Shown piece by piece: positions 11,021 through 59,592 of a stretch of 64,000 nucleotides of DNA (position 1 is its first letter; each line of letters starts with the position of its first letter). Under the pieces are notes generated by a model. That model was given only the letters and a program-made list of their open reading frames with translations, was not told the DNA's origin and made no database searches. Origin of the DNA: [Phormidium] sp. LEGE 05292 (GTDB lineage: Bacteria > Cyanobacteriota > Cyanobacteriia > Cyanobacteriales > Aerosakkonemataceae). Location of the stretch: NCBI RefSeq assembly GCF_015207735.1, contig NZ_JADEWG010000013.1, positions 1-64,000 of the forward strand, read 5' to 3'. A program made the position numbers and the translations under genes.

Positions 11021-11130
11021 GAGCAGGAGGAAAAGGGGATGGGGAGATGGGGAGATGGGGGGAGTTCCTTAAATTTACATCAACAACTCTCCCTACCTCC
11101 CTACCTCCCTACCTCCCCACCTCTTCTGCC
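11021..11130. repeat. Complementary purine and pyrimidine repeat arrays between convergent genes
   Basis: The plus strand carries GGGGAGAT repeats (about 11021-11074) and then, after an AT spacer, CTCCCTAC repeats (about 11089-11130). The two arrays are roughly complementary and could form a long imperfect hairpin between the convergent stops of the SLH gene and the gene at 11141. It could act as a bidirectional terminator. Confidence 0.7.
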
Positions 11131-25500: not shown

Positions 25501-26259
25501 CCCCGCCCAGAAGGTCAGATCGCATTACGACGAGGTTCAGTAAACTTATTTGCCGCCCGCTTTAGACTAGAACGCGGTTACGAAAATGTGGCTGTGTTTG
25601 TTCCCGAACGAGGTTTCAATCCCTTTTTAAATGTACGATTGATTACTAACGTTTCGGAAGTAACTAGTTTTCGCTTACCTGCACCAGCTTTTAGTTCAGA
25701 AGTTAGTGATATTCCCGCTACAGGTATGGGCAGTTTACAATCAGTCAGGGTAAGGGCAACTGTTAATGGCTGGGCGAGTCAATTAGGTGTAAATCCTGAA
25801 TCTAATACGGCAACATCTCAAATTATTGAACTAACCAGCGATCCTCCCCGCACTGAATCAGAAATTGTGGCTTTAATTGGTGGTAGTTTTATTAATAATC
25901 TCGGTCAAGGTGGGGGTGGTGTTGCCGGGTTAGCCGGACTTGCTAGTTCTGTAATTTTACCCGGTTTAGAAGGATTTTTTGGCGATCTTGGCGAAAGACT
26001 GGGGTTAAGCGAGTTTCGCATCTACCCAACAGCAATAACTTCTGGAAAAGAAAATAGTGACTCAGTATTAGGTTTAGCCGCAGAATTTGGGGTTGATATT
26101 ACTAATAATTTATCAGTCTCAGTCCTGCAAATTTTAACTGAATCTCAACCAACTCAGTTTGGTTTACGTTATCGTTTTAATCCAGAATTTACCTTGCGCG
26201 GTTCCACCGATTTTTCTGGTGATACTAGGGCAGTTCTTGAGTTTCAAAAAAGATTTTAG
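19561..26259 (+). CDS. TamB/Tic236-like translocation and assembly protein
   Basis: A 2232-residue protein with one N-terminal membrane helix (about 27-50) and a very long beta-rich periplasmic part. The C-terminal ~350 residues are the TamB/DUF490 domain, with LSLPQTPA, RGSGTLKLDGSLDKPRPEG and the ending FQKRF with terminal Phe. TamB proteins bridge inner and outer membranes as a hydrophobic groove for lipid transfer or outer-membrane protein assembly; cyanobacterial forms are relatives of plastid Tic236. About eight ~75-residue tandem units occupy residues ~620-1215. GAGG lies 6 nt before the ATG. No Omp85/TamA gene is nearby. The length is larger than in proteobacteria (~1250) and typical of cyanobacteria. 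Confidence 0.92.
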   Translation: MTNSPNSDNETEQNLNRRVWLLWLSRAGLGFGIVVLIGVLAGAWWAWVFINRELAPLVEKNVSDLLQRPVKLGKLENFTLNSLRFGPSSVPPTATDTDRASAQAVDVSFNPLQLLLTRTLNLDITLVNPDVFIEQTPDGRWISTQIKQSEAKGAITTNVDSIRVSNANVVLLPQAKLTNPRVPVNINPISATVDFLDKGQRFRFNAEGQIAQKTNNQSSQTNPATFRTNGEFLLPSQQLNAQVQAQYIPVQEIDRLIQIPNANLIAGQVNGNLTVKYNPQEKPFVLGVASLQNVSVTSPQLPAPIINTNGVVNFTGRGLNLNNFSTSLGQIPVQLGGSADLDKGLNLDVIVPNVNVANLTQTFKVKPPVPVIGEIKLATKVTGTIESPTILGRVNTTKQTQVDKLNFRDISTNFAFAPQTGELVISNIQISPMAGGKITGKGNAKLGQPGAVALDLQAQNLPGDAIAKIYNVNLPANINIGNVNAQTQVSGPLNNIRIATNFQAPQATYPLTGQVTVNNGEIRLNNAIAQVPGGDVQASARIANRSWQATVQAAQLPVNSILAITQSTNQNQQQKPPEIPPSIRQGRISGTVNLAGNLDSFQLGNIQATAQANLQVAGGNIRVSQAQLNQGKWQGLVNASGINLALFPQVPPQFRSNFNGQFRVAGNLNAPTTNIQATGQGNINIAGGNAQILQAALNDGNWNATVRANRINLGQLAQVPRELQAPFNGEFRLSGNLNATDTNNIKAVGSGNIQVAGGNVNLRSLELNQGNFLATIAASGVQLTRLPQVPKELPVGAFSGQFQVAGNLNDLTAQKDRSPLNQIQVSGQGNVQLAGGNVQLRQFQLNQGNFQTLVDANNVQVARFPQVPNNFQGTFNGQLQARGNLANLTAQNAQSPLNQIQATARGTLQTPTGNLQLQQVELNQGNFQARVTANNLQLSQFNQVPKGFQGIFSGELQARGNLDNLTAKNAQSPLNQIEANATGNLRIGAGNLQIQQLRLNQGNFLARVNTNNFQLAALPQVPQGFRGAFTGQLEAEGNLDSLTNTKSNQSPLAEIQANAQGVLTIPNGGTVQLRQATLNQGNWQVALDANRLQLASLPQVPPQFQGIFTGELQASGNVASLTQKTDTPLSGIEAIGRGRLQIAGGVVDIKEAQVTQGRWAAAVNLAQVQLNQFSQQLKGGVSGDLRVGGSLAALTQPKGSPLTDIQAIGDLNFTQTPYLNRPLSVAFQWNGQQLEIKQATAPGLNASGTVTASFDRNNTPQIANLNLNVQAEDFNLQTLPVALPKNVAIAGLVDFNGQISGQLNALNINGQVGLQNLVVGEFKFDPDLRGNITATAGRGINLQLQGQQDQIAVQLDPNYKPESLLFRRGDILAQGRRQGDLFLLDLANVPVATVKNLAQNFVNLPPDIATQQVSGNLSGNLAINFDTLSVEGRNVAIAQPRIGDLQADSLIADFRYANGTLEIINSRLQQGESIYALSGRATQLLTQTPQVQGKVTVEKGKIQNILAAVDWFNLQGFGNRGGNIGSAANVPTIPVGIPNAPLRTQLQRFAEIISLQQQELAEKQRANTLPDITELQGNFSGTVDFAGTLPRDIQASFNLQGDNWLLGNYKVEQVLAQGTYNQGNLNVQSLKLASQNRSVAFTGTLGMDKQDGVLQIQNFPLEPVNNILQLPVYVTGNLDGTVNIRGDLNNPYASGQLTVKNGTVDGTKIESALATFSYQDARLNLDSQVLINPPQPIVIAGSVPLKLPFAKVSPASNEISLSVNVQNEGLALISLLTNQQVRWVNGTGQAQLTVGGTLERPVPKGFVNLQNATLGGQLLAEDLNNVKGVIQFEGDRITVENLTGNFKQGQVIAQGTIPIFTPLDSQDPARQNPLNITLDQARINLRGLYGGLVDGRVTIVGSAVNPQIGGQVNLLDGQLSLPQTPATVATVSQTAPPSQTLVIEFDNFQIGLSDRVDITLQPILAFRGSGTLKLDGSLDKPRPEGQIALRRGSVNLFAARFRLERGYENVAVFVPERGFNPFLNVRLITNVSEVTSFRLPAPAFSSEVSDIPATGMGSLQSVRVRATVNGWASQLGVNPESNTATSQIIELTSDPPRTESEIVALIGGSFINNLGQGGGGVAGLAGLASSVILPGLEGFFGDLGERLGLSEFRIYPTAITSGKENSDSVLGLAAEFGVDITNNLSVSVLQILTESQPTQFGLRYRFNPEFTLRGSTDFSGDTRAVLEFQKRF
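21430..23210 (+). repeat. In-gene tandem array in the TamB-like protein
   Basis: About eight protein-level units of 67-80 residues share the pattern LNQGNF..., then FPQVP, then FNGQFxxxGNL, then SPLNQIxAxxxG, then AGGNVQL. Units 3 to 7 are closest and the first and last are degenerate. Nucleotide identity between units is only partial, so this is an old expansion, not a recent slippage. The insert lengthens the lipid-groove region. Confidence 0.85.
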
Positions 26260-49956: not shown

Positions 49957-50298
49957 ATGGAAGTTCAACCAAGGGAAATTCGACGTTACATTACGCTAAA
50001 TGGCAGAATTCCTTTTTTAGAATGGTACTATTCGCTGCGCGATCGCAAAACTCAATATAAAATCGATACAAGGCTTGAGCGAGTTGAATTAGGAAATTTA
50101 GGAAACTATCGTTCAGTTGGAGAAGGTGTATTTGAACTAAAAATTAATTATGGCCCCGGTTATCGAATTTATTTTGGACAAATAGGAACAACTATTGTAC
50201 TTCTCCTTTGTGGAGGAGATAAAAGCACTCAACAAGAAGATATTAACCAAGCTAAGGAGTATTGGGCAGACTATGAAAAACGTGAAAATGCCAACTAG
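49957..50298 (+). CDS. HigB-type toxin (RelE/ParE superfamily), copy 1
   Basis: A 113-residue protein beginning MEVQPREI, with the core SVGEGVFELKINYGPGYRIYFGQIG and ending in KEYWADYEKRE. This is the addiction-module killer type related to HigB, which cuts mRNA on the ribosome. Basic residues RLERV and R in GPGYRIYF fit the expected active surface. The antitoxin gene overlaps its 3' end by 26 nt, with toxin first, the usual HigBA order. A near-identical pair lies 705 bp downstream. Confidence 0.88.
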   Translation: MEVQPREIRRYITLNGRIPFLEWYYSLRDRKTQYKIDTRLERVELGNLGNYRSVGEGVFELKINYGPGYRIYFGQIGTTIVLLLCGGDKSTQQEDINQAKEYWADYEKRENAN

Positions 50299-50596
50299 TG
50301 ATAGCTACCGTGAGTTTCTAATTGAATGTCTTAAAGATCCAGAACACGCTGCTGGTTATATTGAAGCTATTTTAGAAGAAGAAGATCCTGAACCGGAACT
50401 TCTCCGAAATGCGCTGAGAAAGGTTATTGAGGCTTGGGAAAAAAGCGATCGTCGCCTTTCCGAATCAACAAAACAATTGCATGAAAAGCTCGATCGAATA
50501 CTCACAGAAAGTAATGCTTCAGAAATTTACACTTTTGTAGAATTACTAAATGCACTAGGTTTTCAAATAGCTATTTCCCCGAAAGAAACTGAATGA
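50273..50596 (+). CDS. HigA-like antitoxin, copy 1
   Basis: A 107-residue protein. The pattern AAGYIEAILEE, LRNALRKVIEAWE and FVELLNALGFQIAI matches HigA-type antidotes, but the helix-turn-helix is divergent (ESTKQLHEKLDRIL in place of the usual QxAxxxGxSRxxLYR pattern). AAGGAG lies 13 nt before ATG 50273; an inner ATG at 50288 is also possible. It overlaps the toxin by 26 nt. Whether it still binds DNA is unclear. Confidence 0.8.
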   Translation: MKNVKMPTSDSYREFLIECLKDPEHAAGYIEAILEEEDPEPELLRNALRKVIEAWEKSDRRLSESTKQLHEKLDRILTESNASEIYTFVELLNALGFQIAISPKETE

Positions 50597-50661
50597 GTTC
50601 CCGATTTTGATATGATGCGATTTATCGTGAAATCAGACAATTCTGGAACTACAATAAAATC

Positions 50662-51006
50662 ATGGAAGCCCAACCAAGGGAAATTCAAAACTATGTCAAA
50701 GCTGACAATAGCAGCCCCTTTGAAGATTGGTATAACTCTTTACGAGATAACAAAGCCAAAAACCGGATTCAGTTAAGACTTGATAGAATTCAGCAAGGTA
50801 ATTTAGGAGATTACCGTTCAGTCGGAGAAGGAGTTTTTGAGTTTAGAATTGATTATGGCCCTGGTTATCGAGTCTATTTTGGACAAATAGGATCTATTAT
50901 TGTACTTCTCCTGTGTGGCAGAGATAAAAGTACTCAAGATAGAGACATTCGCAAAGCTAAGGAGTATTGGGCAGATTATGAAAAACGTGAAAGTACCGAC
51001 AAGTAG
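50662..51006 (+). CDS. HigB-type toxin, copy 2
   Basis: A 114-residue paralogue of the gene at 49957, with the same landmarks: MEAQPREI, YRSVGEGVFEF, GPGYRVYFGQIG and KEYWADYEKRE. Differences lie mostly in the N-terminal third and near the C-terminus. The antitoxin frame again overlaps, by 29 nt. The 705-bp period between copies and the shared overlap layout show that the whole pair was duplicated, with enough divergence that antitoxin specificity could differ. Confidence 0.88.
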   Translation: MEAQPREIQNYVKADNSSPFEDWYNSLRDNKAKNRIQLRLDRIQQGNLGDYRSVGEGVFEFRIDYGPGYRVYFGQIGSIIVLLLCGRDKSTQDRDIRKAKEYWADYEKRESTDK

Positions 51007-51301
51007 AAGCTATCATGAGTTTCTAATTGAGTCTCTGGAAAACCGGGAAGAAGCTGCTGGTTATATTGAGATAGTTCTGGAAGAAGGGGGCGATCAACCA
51101 GTATTATTGCGAAAGGCAATTAGAAATGTGGTTGAAGCTTGGGAAAGGTGCGATCGCATCTCCGAATCAACAAAACAATTACATGAAAAGCTCGATCGAA
51201 TGCTAACAGAAAGTAATGCTACCGAAATTTACACTTTTTTCCAATTACTAAATGAACTGGGTTTCCACATTATAATTACACCGAAAGAAACCCAATCCTA
51301 A
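50978..51301 (+). CDS. HigA-like antitoxin, copy 2
   Basis: A 107-residue paralogue of the gene at 50273, sharing MKNVKVPTSRSY, AAGYIEIVLEE, STKQLHEKLDRMLTESNA and YTFFQLLNELGF. The most divergent part is around residues 15-45. AAGGAG lies 13 nt upstream of the ATG, as in copy 1, and the start overlaps the toxin end by 29 nt. The DNA-binding segment is equally atypical. Confidence 0.8.
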   Translation: MKNVKVPTSRSYHEFLIESLENREEAAGYIEIVLEEGGDQPVLLRKAIRNVVEAWERCDRISESTKQLHEKLDRMLTESNATEIYTFFQLLNELGFHIIITPKETQS

Positions 51302-52081: not shown

Positions 52082-52909
52082 TCACTCGGTAGTTTTGGGT
52101 AACAAGGGAAAGAAGTGTCCTACTGGCCCTTGACCTTTACCAATACTGAGTGCGTATTTTAAGGCGGTAGTAACATAATTTTTAGCTAATTGCACGGCGG
52201 TTAATAAATCTTTTCCTTGTGCTAAATTAGCGGCGATCGCAGCTGCTAAAGTACAACCAGTACCATGAGTGTTGGTTGTTTCCACCATCGATGTGGTTAA
52301 AGTTAAAAGCTGCTCGCCATCAAACCAAACATCCACACCCCGCAAATCTCCTAACATTCCCCCACCCTTAACCAAAACCGCTTGTGCCCCCAATTGGTGA
52401 ATGCGTTGAGCCGCTTCCTGCATATCAACTAAACTTTCAACTGCCAAACCGCTGAGCATTTGCGCCTCGTAACGATTAGGAGTGACAATTCTAGCTTGGG
52501 GAATCAACTGCTCTCGCAAACAAACAACTGCCGCATCATCAATTAACTGAGCTCCGGTGCGGGATACCATTACTGGGTCAACTACCAAATTGGCAATATT
52601 TAACTCTCTTACCTGTTGAGCTACCGCCTGAATAATCTCCTGATTGAGCAACATTCCAGTTTTTGTAGCTTGCACCCCAATATCCCCTACTACTGCCTGA
52701 ATTTGCGCTACTACAGCCGCCGCAGGCAGAGCATCAACCCTATATACCCCTAAAGTGTTTTGTGCTGTTATACAGGTAATGGCGCTGGTTCCGTGAACGC
52801 GGTGAAAGGCGAAAGTCCTTAAATCTGCTTGAATTCCGGCACCGCCGCCACTATCTGAACCTGCGATCGTCAAAGCTACTGGTATACGCAATGCAGTTTC
52901 TTTGGTCAT
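52082..52909 (-). CDS. thiD: Hydroxymethylpyrimidine/phosphomethylpyrimidine kinase
   Basis: A 275-residue ribokinase-fold enzyme that phosphorylates HMP and HMP-phosphate in thiamine synthesis. Family motifs are IAGSDSGGGAGIQADLRTF at the N-terminus, PVMVSRTGAQLI and the anion-hole region TNTHGTGCTLAAAIAANLA with the catalytic Asp region. The length is standard. It lies 153 bp after ftsZ on the same strand; a strongly folded element fills most of that gap. No other thiamine gene is adjacent. Confidence 0.96.
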   Translation of the reverse strand: MTKETALRIPVALTIAGSDSGGGAGIQADLRTFAFHRVHGTSAITCITAQNTLGVYRVDALPAAAVVAQIQAVVGDIGVQATKTGMLLNQEIIQAVAQQVRELNIANLVVDPVMVSRTGAQLIDDAAVVCLREQLIPQARIVTPNRYEAQMLSGLAVESLVDMQEAAQRIHQLGAQAVLVKGGGMLGDLRGVDVWFDGEQLLTLTTSMVETTNTHGTGCTLAAAIAANLAQGKDLLTAVQLAKNYVTTALKYALSIGKGQGPVGHFFPLLPKTTE

Positions 52910-52940
52910 ACCGGAGGAAGTTTAAAGTGGTTGAAGCAGG

Positions 52941-53038
52941 TCGAGAAACCCAAATCCTCTCTGTTTTTCGGTAACACTCAGCCAGGGTTACTCCCCTGAG
53001 AAATTACCAACGAAAACGCAAACAAGGTGGTTTCTCGA
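52941..53038 (-). ncRNA. Candidate structured RNA in the ftsZ-thiD gap
   Basis: On the plus strand TCGAGAAACC (52941-52950) pairs with GGTTTCTCGA (53029-53038), ten perfect base pairs. Inside it are nested stems GGTAA/TTACC, CTCAG/CTGAG and GGG/CCC around a TTACT loop (about 52970-53008). On the minus strand it starts 24 nt after the ftsZ stop and ends 31 nt before the thiD start. Parts read GGGGAGT and GGCTGAG, which recall the 5' half of a THI box, but the 3' half is not seen. It could be a thiD leader, an ftsZ 3' element or a small RNA. Confidence 0.5.
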
Positions 53039-53062
53039 TAACAAACTGCAAGAGAAACAATT

Positions 53063-54349
53063 TTAGGTGTCTCTCTTGGGACGATTTCTTTGGAGAAACT
53101 CTGGAATATCTAATCCAGGTGGTTGTAATGGTGCTTGTCTTTCGGGTTCAGTCCTCACATTAACGGAAGTTGGGGGTTTAACTGCTGGCTGAGTTTGATG
53201 CCTCGCTGCTGGGCGTGTTTGCTGAGCCGTTTGTGGCTGAGCTTCCCCACTAAACCCAGTGGCAATTACCGTAATCCTAACTTCCCCTTGCATTTCTTCA
53301 TCAATCACCGCACCAAAGATGATGTTAGCGTTAGGATCAACAACGTCGTAGATAATTTCTGCTGCGGCATTAACTTCATGCAAGGTGAGGTCTCTACCAC
53401 CCGTAATGTTGAATACTACGCCTCTAGCACCTCTGACAGAAGATTCTAGGAAAGGAGAAGAAATTGCGGTAGTAGCAGCTTCGGTAGCCCGTGATTTCCC
53501 AGACCCTTCACCGATGCCCATCAAAGCCGATCCCGCATCTGCCATGATTGCCCGGACATCAGCAAAGTCTACGTTGATTAATCCGGGGATGGTGATGATA
53601 TCGGAGATCCCTTGTACACCTTGACGGAGGATGTTATCGGCTTCGCGAAAAGCGTCTTGCAGGGGAAGATTTTCGGGAATTACGTCGAGGATGCGATCGT
53701 TCGGGATAATAATCAACGTATCCACCCGACTTTGTAAAGCCGCTATTCCTTCTTCCGCTTTGTTATTGCGTTGCCGTCCCTCAAACTTAAAAGGACGAGT
53801 TACTACACCTACTGTCAAGGCACCTGCTTCTTTCGCTACATCAGCTACGACTGCGGCTGCACCCGTACCTGTACCACCGCCCATGCCAGCAGTGATAAAC
53901 ACTAAATCTGAGTTACCAATAGCATTAGCTATTTCATCACGAGATTCTTCTGCTGCCTTTTGTCCAACTGCGGGATTACCGCCTGCGCCTAAACCACGAG
54001 TTAATTTTGTTCCGATTTGCAAGCGTTGGGTGGCAGATGATAAAGCCAAGGCTTGAGCATCGGTGTTAATTGACCAAAATTCTATTCCTGAGAGATTGCT
54101 GGCGATCATGCGGTTGACGGCATTGCTGCCACCGCCACCAACACCAATCACTTTAATTTTGGCTACCCGACTGGGTACAATGTCGCCGCTGCGTGCTTCT
54201 TCAGGCATATCTTTGGGTTCGCGAACTTGACCAAACTGAAATCCAGTCATCATATAAGGATTACTGGCATCCATTCCTGGTGCCAAACCCTGTTGTCCCT
54301 CTGCTTGGGAAACTTTATTTGCGAGCCCCTGTCTATTATTAATAATCAT
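53063..54349 (-). CDS. ftsZ: Cell division protein FtsZ
   Basis: The bacterial tubulin homologue that forms the division ring. The GTP-binding motif GGGTGTGAA and [17 protein letters not shown] are present, and the C-terminal tail ends [15 protein letters not shown], the FtsZ-tail docking peptide. A ~55-residue N-terminal extension precedes the GTPase domain, as in other cyanobacteria. The frame reaches a TTG at 54376, but ATG 54349 (MIINNRQG) is preferred; neither start has a strong ribosome binding site. The length from ATG is 428. ftsQ lies upstream on the same strand. Confidence 0.97.
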
Positions 54350-54483
54350 TGGAATCAAAAAATAGTCCCTAAACAACTTTTCAATTCTAGGTAGCTCAAG
54401 TCAACTATAGGCTAAGGTGGTTGAAAAACCAATAAATAGTGACAAGCTGATTGATTATATAGCAAGTTTTGCTAACCTATAGC

Positions 54484-55452
54484 TTATCGCTGTCTGTCAA
54501 GCTTTAGTGTTCGTTTTGAGCGAATCTTCAGGATTTGAGCCGACTCTGAATCAAGTTGAGTTGTTGGATATTGTAATTGAACAGCGGGTGAATTGGGGTC
54601 ACTCAAGTCAATGTAAGCTATTGGGTGTCCATCAACTTGGTTTGACAATTGGCGCATTTGGTCTAAAATTGCGAGTTGGTCGGCGAAGTGAGAACCATAT
54701 ATTCCCAGATGCACGGTGCCGATGTCGGTTTTCAAGATTACATTGGTGGGATTTTGCCAGTCAATTTCGGAAATTTTGACGGGGGAGCGACGCAATATTT
54801 GATAGAGTTGTGCCCAATGGGGTAAATATTGTTGGCGATCGCCGATAATTCGCAATGTGGGCAGAGGTATTGGTTGTCCGGCAGAGTTGGAGTTTTCTAT
54901 TGGTATCCAAGTTCCTTTAGCATCAATTAATCCCACTGGTACTATTTGCGGTGGGGGAGGGGTGGTTGGTTCTAGTTGATTTGTTTGATTGGGATCGGCT
55001 GGATTTGTTGGGGATGATATGGCGGGAGTTGGGGGTACGCTGGGATTTACTGAAACTGCGGTTGCTACAGGTTCACGTTCCTCGACTTTGACCGTTAAAC
55101 TCGGTGGAAATAGCTGGCGGCTGACTGATGCTTTGGCGATCAATGTTTGCTTTGTTTCTAGCTGTTGAGCTAATGTTTTCGGCTCAATTCGCAGTAATGA
55201 CTGGGGATAGGACAAGGATAATAAAGAGCGAACTCCTTGGTCGGAAAGAATGTGATTGCCTTCGATGTTAATTTGTTCGGGTTGTTCGATCACCCAAACT
55301 GGTTGGGTGGCTACCCAGCTTAAACCACCTGCCAAACTAGTAATTGCTACAATGCGCCAAATTCCACAAACTAGTTGCTGTCTTCTTTGACGACGCAGAG
55401 TTTTTCGCCTTTGAGACAATTCTGCTGAACTAATCGATAAGATGTTGGTCAT
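54484..55452 (-). CDS. ftsQ: Cell division protein FtsQ/DivIB
   Basis: A 322-residue bitopic inner-membrane protein. One membrane helix near residues 32-50 follows a basic N-terminus (RRKTLRRQRRQQL). The POTRA domain (INIEGNHILSDQGVRSLLSL) lies at about 58-130, then a Pro-rich linker (~135-170, PTPAISSPTNPADP) and the FtsQ domain ending near residue 320. It links the divisome proteins in the periplasm. It precedes ftsZ by 134 bp, the usual cyanobacterial order. Confidence 0.93.
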   Translation of the reverse strand: MTNILSISSAELSQRRKTLRRQRRQQLVCGIWRIVAITSLAGGLSWVATQPVWVIEQPEQINIEGNHILSDQGVRSLLSLSYPQSLLRIEPKTLAQQLETKQTLIAKASVSRQLFPPSLTVKVEEREPVATAVSVNPSVPPTPAISSPTNPADPNQTNQLEPTTPPPPQIVPVGLIDAKGTWIPIENSNSAGQPIPLPTLRIIGDRQQYLPHWAQLYQILRRSPVKISEIDWQNPTNVILKTDIGTVHLGIYGSHFADQLAILDQMRQLSNQVDGHPIAYIDLSDPNSPAVQLQYPTTQLDSESAQILKIRSKRTLKLDRQR

Positions 55453-59481: not shown

Positions 59482-59592
59482 GGTTATTGGTTATTGGTCA
59501 TCGGTCATCGGTCATTAGTTCTTGGTGAAGAACTACTCATTGATATTACAACTAACCATTAACAAATGACTAATGACTAATGACTCATGACT
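59482..59592. repeat. Paired complementary heptamer arrays
   Basis: Five heptamers GGTTATT/GGTCATC/GGTCATT at 59482-59516 face four AATGACT-type heptamers at 59565-59592. The units are near-complementary, so the array can fold back. It fills the gap between hupE-like and COG0523 genes. Confidence 0.8.

Follow-up and report, generated by a model that had tools for sequence, protein, structure and literature searches.

The spacer between the division gene ftsZ and the thiamine gene thiD of this cyanobacterium, whose 7.5-Mb genome belongs to the same GTDB family as Argonema, contains a 98-nt sequence (52941..53038) that is predicted to fold into a long hairpin, and the question raised by the locus is whether this hairpin belongs to ftsZ, to thiD or to neither. 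In the window, by which we mean the whole 64,000-nt stretch of DNA analysed here, ftsZ (53063..54376; Pfam Tubulin and FtsZ_C) and thiD (52082..52909; Pfam Phos_pyr_kin) are both encoded on the minus strand, as is the Pfam-confirmed ftsQ (54484-55452), such that the hairpin lies in a 153-nt spacer between co-directional genes and its sense strand is the minus strand. In its own species as well as in G006, the one congener among the ten family genomes searched, the hairpin begins 24 nt past the ftsZ stop, while its distance to the ATG of thiD differs, being 31 nt in the former and 35 nt in the latter (counted on the spacers). Because the first distance is constant and the second is variable, the hairpin seems to be tied to ftsZ rather than to thiD. 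The preliminary description had considered a thiamine-linked leader, a 3' element of ftsZ or a small RNA, and the second of these fits best with the constant stop distance and with a sense-strand fold that is kept in both species. We propose, with a probability of about 0.5, that the element is a genus-specific, cis-acting intercistronic hairpin that would protect the 3' end of ftsZ or guide its processing. As such, we infer transcription of the spacer, a common transcript for ftsZ and thiD, selection on the RNA and a step of protection or processing.

The architecture claimed at the outset, a perfect 10-bp outer stem (TCGAGAAACC / GGTTTCTCGA) closing nested inner stems, was recovered at 52941-53038, with 37 predicted base pairs on the minus strand. 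Both arms of the outer stem, UCGAGAAACC on the 5' side (53029..53038, minus strand) and GGUUUCUCGA on the 3' side (52941..52950, minus strand), are identical in G006. The middle stems, in which 53013..53025 pairs with 52955..52967 on the minus strand (alignment columns 16-28 with 74-86), are common to both species, and the inner stem with its hexaloop (52968..53010, minus strand; loop at about 52988-52993) is the most diverged part, its pairing being kept partly through a shift of register. In the predicted fold the inner stems are stacked into a single rod and a multibranch loop is absent.

Folding energy by itself does not set this rod apart. The minus strand reaches -37.7 kcal/mol (z -4.13) and the plus strand -31.1 kcal/mol (z -4.37), with none of 200 shuffles as good in either case; the z score depends on the boundaries, however, as 149 nt of spacer on the minus strand give a z of only -1.67, with 12 of 200 shuffles as good. 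When 98-nt windows were scanned in 10-nt steps (12,782 windows, both strands of a site counted), composition-corrected energy placed the minus strand of the hairpin at rank 38 and, among 40 selected windows, shuffle z placed it at rank 23, and thus equal or stronger folds exist elsewhere in the window. Foldability alone would leave the hairpin unremarkable, and its distinguishing feature is the retention of the fold in the sister species rather than its energy. The abundance of equally strong hairpins also speaks for the main rival explanation, namely a functionless spacer palindrome, a formerly mobile hairpin or repeat that would have landed before the two species split and been kept by chance or by arm-to-arm mutational repair.

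The position in front of a thiamine gene calls for a separate answer. The words GGGGAGT and GGCTGAG had been noted on the minus strand and are indeed present there; in this species only, they resemble the 5' half of the TPP riboswitch (RF00059), which likewise lies upstream of thiamine genes. On these grounds the element could be read as a 5' leader regulating thiD, be it a riboswitch or an attenuator, possibly for thiamine compounds. The searches lend no support to a thiamine-linked leader. Rfam gave no match in the whole window at gathering score, and for 52850-53120, with E values up to 10, TPP was absent and the one match, ST7-AS1_1, fell below its gathering score. In G006, the sole relative with the element, GGGGAGT...GGCTGAG reads GGGAAAA...TGGGGAG, and the apical loop is changed as well. 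Unlike the TPP riboswitch, the rod has no junction, and it ends 31-35 nt ahead of the thiD start, which is hence not covered by the hairpin. In addition, one TPP riboswitch over cut-off was found in each of the two genomes, elsewhere than the element, and that of the own genome precedes thiC (the gene being named by eye from its protein). Identity with a TPP riboswitch was rejected on the combination of the missing Rfam match, the unconserved words and the riboswitch at thiC, so that the apparent hint at a new thiamine riboswitch proves misleading, and we regard any thiD leader as highly improbable. The TPP riboswitches of the two species are nearly identical in sequence, and such similar copies would make an uninformative positive control if the mutation test used below were applied to them.

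Where else the element occurs bears on both the proposed role and the palindrome. A DNA search of the own genome returned one match, the hairpin itself, and an arm-pattern search hit, besides the hairpin, five other places on each strand, the control with the reversed pattern hitting 12. Among the ten family genomes, the own genome included, the DNA search found one further copy, in G006, at 78% identity. A covariance model built from these two sequences, run at E 0.01 over 388 sampled genomes of the order with stricter filters (for the results listed, 10 candidates were scored in each genome), hit 2 genomes only, the same two, at the orthologous place. BLAST against 291 genomes of the order (E up to 1) gave two long matches, again in these two species, and among the matches listed all others were short, with E values of 0.007 or worse. 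The search for the same element as a repeat in unrelated spacers, which would have spoken against a specific role, was thus made by DNA, arm-pattern and covariance methods and found no such repeat. Outside chromosomes, a plasmid search gave no match, the exact pattern was not found in viral contigs, and a phage search covering 68 records produced, among the matches listed, 27-base matches at E 0.1.

The orthologous spacers of other species were also covered. Out of 313 thiD loci found in GTDB species, 80 were kept, of which 9 also held ftsZ; the ftsZ-thiD spacer was shorter than 200 nt in four of these nine (L033, L048, L056 and L071), L048 being the same genome as G004 and L056 (Argonema antarcticum) the same as G002 (shared 60-base stretch). 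Applied at E up to 1 to these 80 loci, all from other species, the covariance model did not find the element, nor did it do so at E up to 10 in 17 loci (the nine with ftsZ and eight other family loci). Seven of the eight family genomes outside the genus have ftsZ upstream of thiD, with unrelated spacers. The other genera of the family do without the element, which counts against the role that we propose, and the restriction to one genus speaks for a functionless palindrome. The palindrome also draws support from the strong folding of some of these unrelated spacers (L125, g2, z -4.25; L126, g5, z -5.02), while those of g3 (Argonema: L121, L123 and L124) and L122 (g4) show no strong fold; L127, whose contig starts at thiD, and L128, whose spacer was cut to 12 nt by the start rule, were left out of these folds. 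The L125 spacer, from another genus of the family, contains a nearly perfect A+T-rich hairpin.

MITEs and other dispersed palindromic repeats are a known class in cyanobacteria, and the element resembles them in its size of about 100 bp, its terminal inverted repeats and its confinement to one genus. It differs from them in being present once per genome at an orthologous place, with its pairing retained and no target duplication apparent by eye, the minus-strand flanks TTA and CCT being different. A dispersed repeat or MITE was rejected as a class, several copies being expected and one copy being found by DNA, arm-pattern and covariance searches. The single copy and the missing target-site duplication likewise weigh against an ex-mobile palindrome.

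The evidence that carries our reading comes from the comparison of the two species. The copies differ at 19 of 97 aligned bases and by a 5-nt deletion, and each forms 37 pairs on the sense strand, 6 of them G-U, with the G006 homologue folding to -41.3 on that strand. We randomly mutated the own sequence by 19 substitutions and a 5-nt deletion, refolded it and compared it with the G006 energy: the mutants averaged -24.9 (sd 4.8), and as good a fold was reached in 3/2000 cases for the sense strand and 153/2000 for the antisense strand, which means that free mutation would for the most part have destroyed the fold, a point against a functionless palindrome. When random bases were placed at the observed sites, 6/3000 sense and 330/3000 antisense sequences were as good. 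In the reverse test, with G006 mutated towards the own sequence, the counts were 8/2000 sense and 6/2000 antisense; the antisense fold is thus retained too in this direction, so that the strand preference is not clean and holds in one test direction only, a point in favour of the palindrome. Keeping the outer arms constant left a modest signal for the sense strand (31/2000), against 989/2000 for the antisense strand, and this contrast favours an RNA over a DNA palindrome, as such a sense bias would not be expected from arm-to-arm repair.

The distribution of changes points in the same direction. Of the 69 aligned columns that are paired (74 minus the 5 deleted), 8 carry a substitution, as compared with 11 of the 28 unpaired columns (Fisher p 0.004). 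Only 24 of the 37 pairs use the same alignment columns, the inner stem being re-registered, and in consensus folding both sides have changed in 1 of 28 pairs. The preliminary description had called for covarying homologues in relatives: conservation is found, in the one relative G006, and classical covariation is almost absent because there are only two sequences.

The value of the mutation test lies in separating a retained RNA fold from abundant spacer palindromes, and it was run on control sites chosen, like the element, for strong folding. There were 16 other sites, 13 of them reliably aligned to G006, as 6281 and 19081 lie between syntenic blocks, where the alignment is unreliable, and 11031 is absent from G006. 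For 11 other strongly folding windows (nine sites) in the syntenic stretch no fold was retained, and the element run in parallel with them gave 0/600 sense and 45/600 antisense. Among seven further sites, which include 6281, 19081 and 11031, one fold was retained, that of 59491-59588 on the plus strand (0/300), antisense to its neighbours, and the next best was 16591 on the minus strand (27/300). At 59491-59588, a strong hairpin lies in the spacer that separates two minus-strand genes. A strong plus-strand fold is likewise formed by the G006 spacer, in which the 85-nt counterpart differs at 39 aligned bases, the sequence being a low-complexity repeat. The retention at this site is due to repeat turnover and not to descent of a related hairpin. 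Spacer hairpins can therefore recur without shared descent, which again favours the palindrome. Strong hairpins at 26251, 36001, 57741, 61471 and 63411 and some others of the 40 lie outside the control set; the gene between 61471 and 63411 has as its best G006 match only a 30% relative. The hairpin at 11031-11128, which is of repeat type and located where gene ends converge, folds very strongly (-49.9 kcal/mol) and has no counterpart at the corresponding position of the G006 alignment. Taking these points together, we consider a functionless palindrome a serious contender, if a somewhat unlikely one.

Since the hairpin lies directly behind ftsZ, it may instead end the message, as a non-canonical ftsZ terminator made of a strong hairpin without a U-run. 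Cyanobacteria lack Rho, and in Synechococcus elongatus most transcription units are reported not to be ended by known pathways (PMC13289151), as would suit such a device. The rod itself is not followed by a U-run and no terminator was called there in a terminator scan. The stems of intrinsic terminators are compact and G+C-rich, and the element, although likewise a hairpin behind a gene, is a long rod of 37 bp with A/U-rich parts. If the hairpin were a terminator, thiD would need its own promoter, and a consensus scan found no minus-strand promoter in the spacer. A terminator thus appears unlikely. The scan did call a terminator-like small hairpin over the ftsZ stop codon (53049..53078, minus strand), and terminator-like sites in the region numbered 2, as compared with 2.5 in shuffles. 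The fold of 53041-53138, which includes this small hairpin, was not kept in G006.

The rod is stable on the sense strand and, judged by eye, has no conserved open frame, and it could also be freed from the 3' part of ftsZ as a small RNA; small RNAs derived from 3' regions are an established class (PMC9438474). This possibility is barely probable, as conservation is lowest in the apical loop and the inner stem, the parts that might contain a seed, and no Rfam family matches. A coding leader was also rejected, the TTG-started frame in the spacer being unconserved in G006 (by eye).

Intercistronic hairpins that stabilise or process messages are well established, as exemplified by REP-type 3' stabilisers and by RNase III sites in spacers. 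The element is like these in being structured, in standing behind a stop codon between co-directional genes and in lacking a U-run, and it is predicted to set two RNA levels apart as they do; it differs from REP-type stabilisers in being a single copy and not repeated, and its own role in processing or stabilisation is one that we propose. For the intercistronic hairpin that we favour, transcription of the spacer would yield an RNA rod of about 37 pairs beginning 24 nt past the ftsZ stop codon and, given the size of a ribosome footprint, probably outside the footprint of the terminating ribosome. There, the rod would punctuate a message running from ftsZ towards thiD. It might mark or protect the ftsZ 3' end against 3'-to-5' exonucleases, or it might be a cleavage site for a nuclease specific to double strands, for instance RNase III, of whose family two matches over cut-off are found in the genome. 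Through either protection or cleavage at the rod, the RNA levels of ftsZ and thiD could be set separately.

Published work gives this proposal a mixed background. Canonical intrinsic terminators are reported to close only 22% of the transcription units of S. elongatus, and transcript-stabilising or processing-guiding hairpins are named there as possibilities; according to the same source, however, stabilising structures at defined ends without a U-tract are largely absent, which counts against the role (PMC13289151). The ftsA-ftsZ message of E. coli is described as being processed by RNase E (PMC10783494). The record found on ftsZ with thiD and cyanobacterial operons concerns alpha-proteobacterial small RNAs, and the titles and abstract starts of the records on ftsZ, small RNAs and RNase III, as well as those of the best 12 of 71 on hairpins and RNase III, contained nothing on the ftsZ-thiD spacer. 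The locus may represent a small and testable example of the way in which an essential division gene might be set apart from its metabolic neighbour in a cyanobacterium without Rho, in a phylum where, for the species studied, most transcription units do not end by known pathways (PMC13289151).

A more elaborate version is conceivable from the sequence, in which a genus-specific regulatory RNA would have arisen in the fast-changing ftsZ-thiD spacer and would control the amount of ftsZ RNA, possibly as a switch that has the rod and an alternative pairing as its two states. The motif GAGAAAC in the 5' arm can form 7 bp with GUUUCUC just behind the ftsZ stop (by eye), a match that is kept in G006 with one G-U (by eye) and is unused in the minimum-energy fold. 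From the retention of this match, we speculate that folding could be controlled by whether ftsZ is translated as far as its stop, and we consider such a switch very unlikely. The GUUUCUC segment forms the 3' side of the small hairpin at 53049-53078, and its complementarity to the 5' arm of the large hairpin was noted by eye.

Elsewhere in the window, a small overlapping gene pair is present in two tandem copies at 49957-51301, of which the first protein of copy one has a weak Gp49/DUF891 match below cut-off and the proteins of copy two have no Pfam match. This arrangement looks like a duplicated locus of the toxin-antitoxin type.
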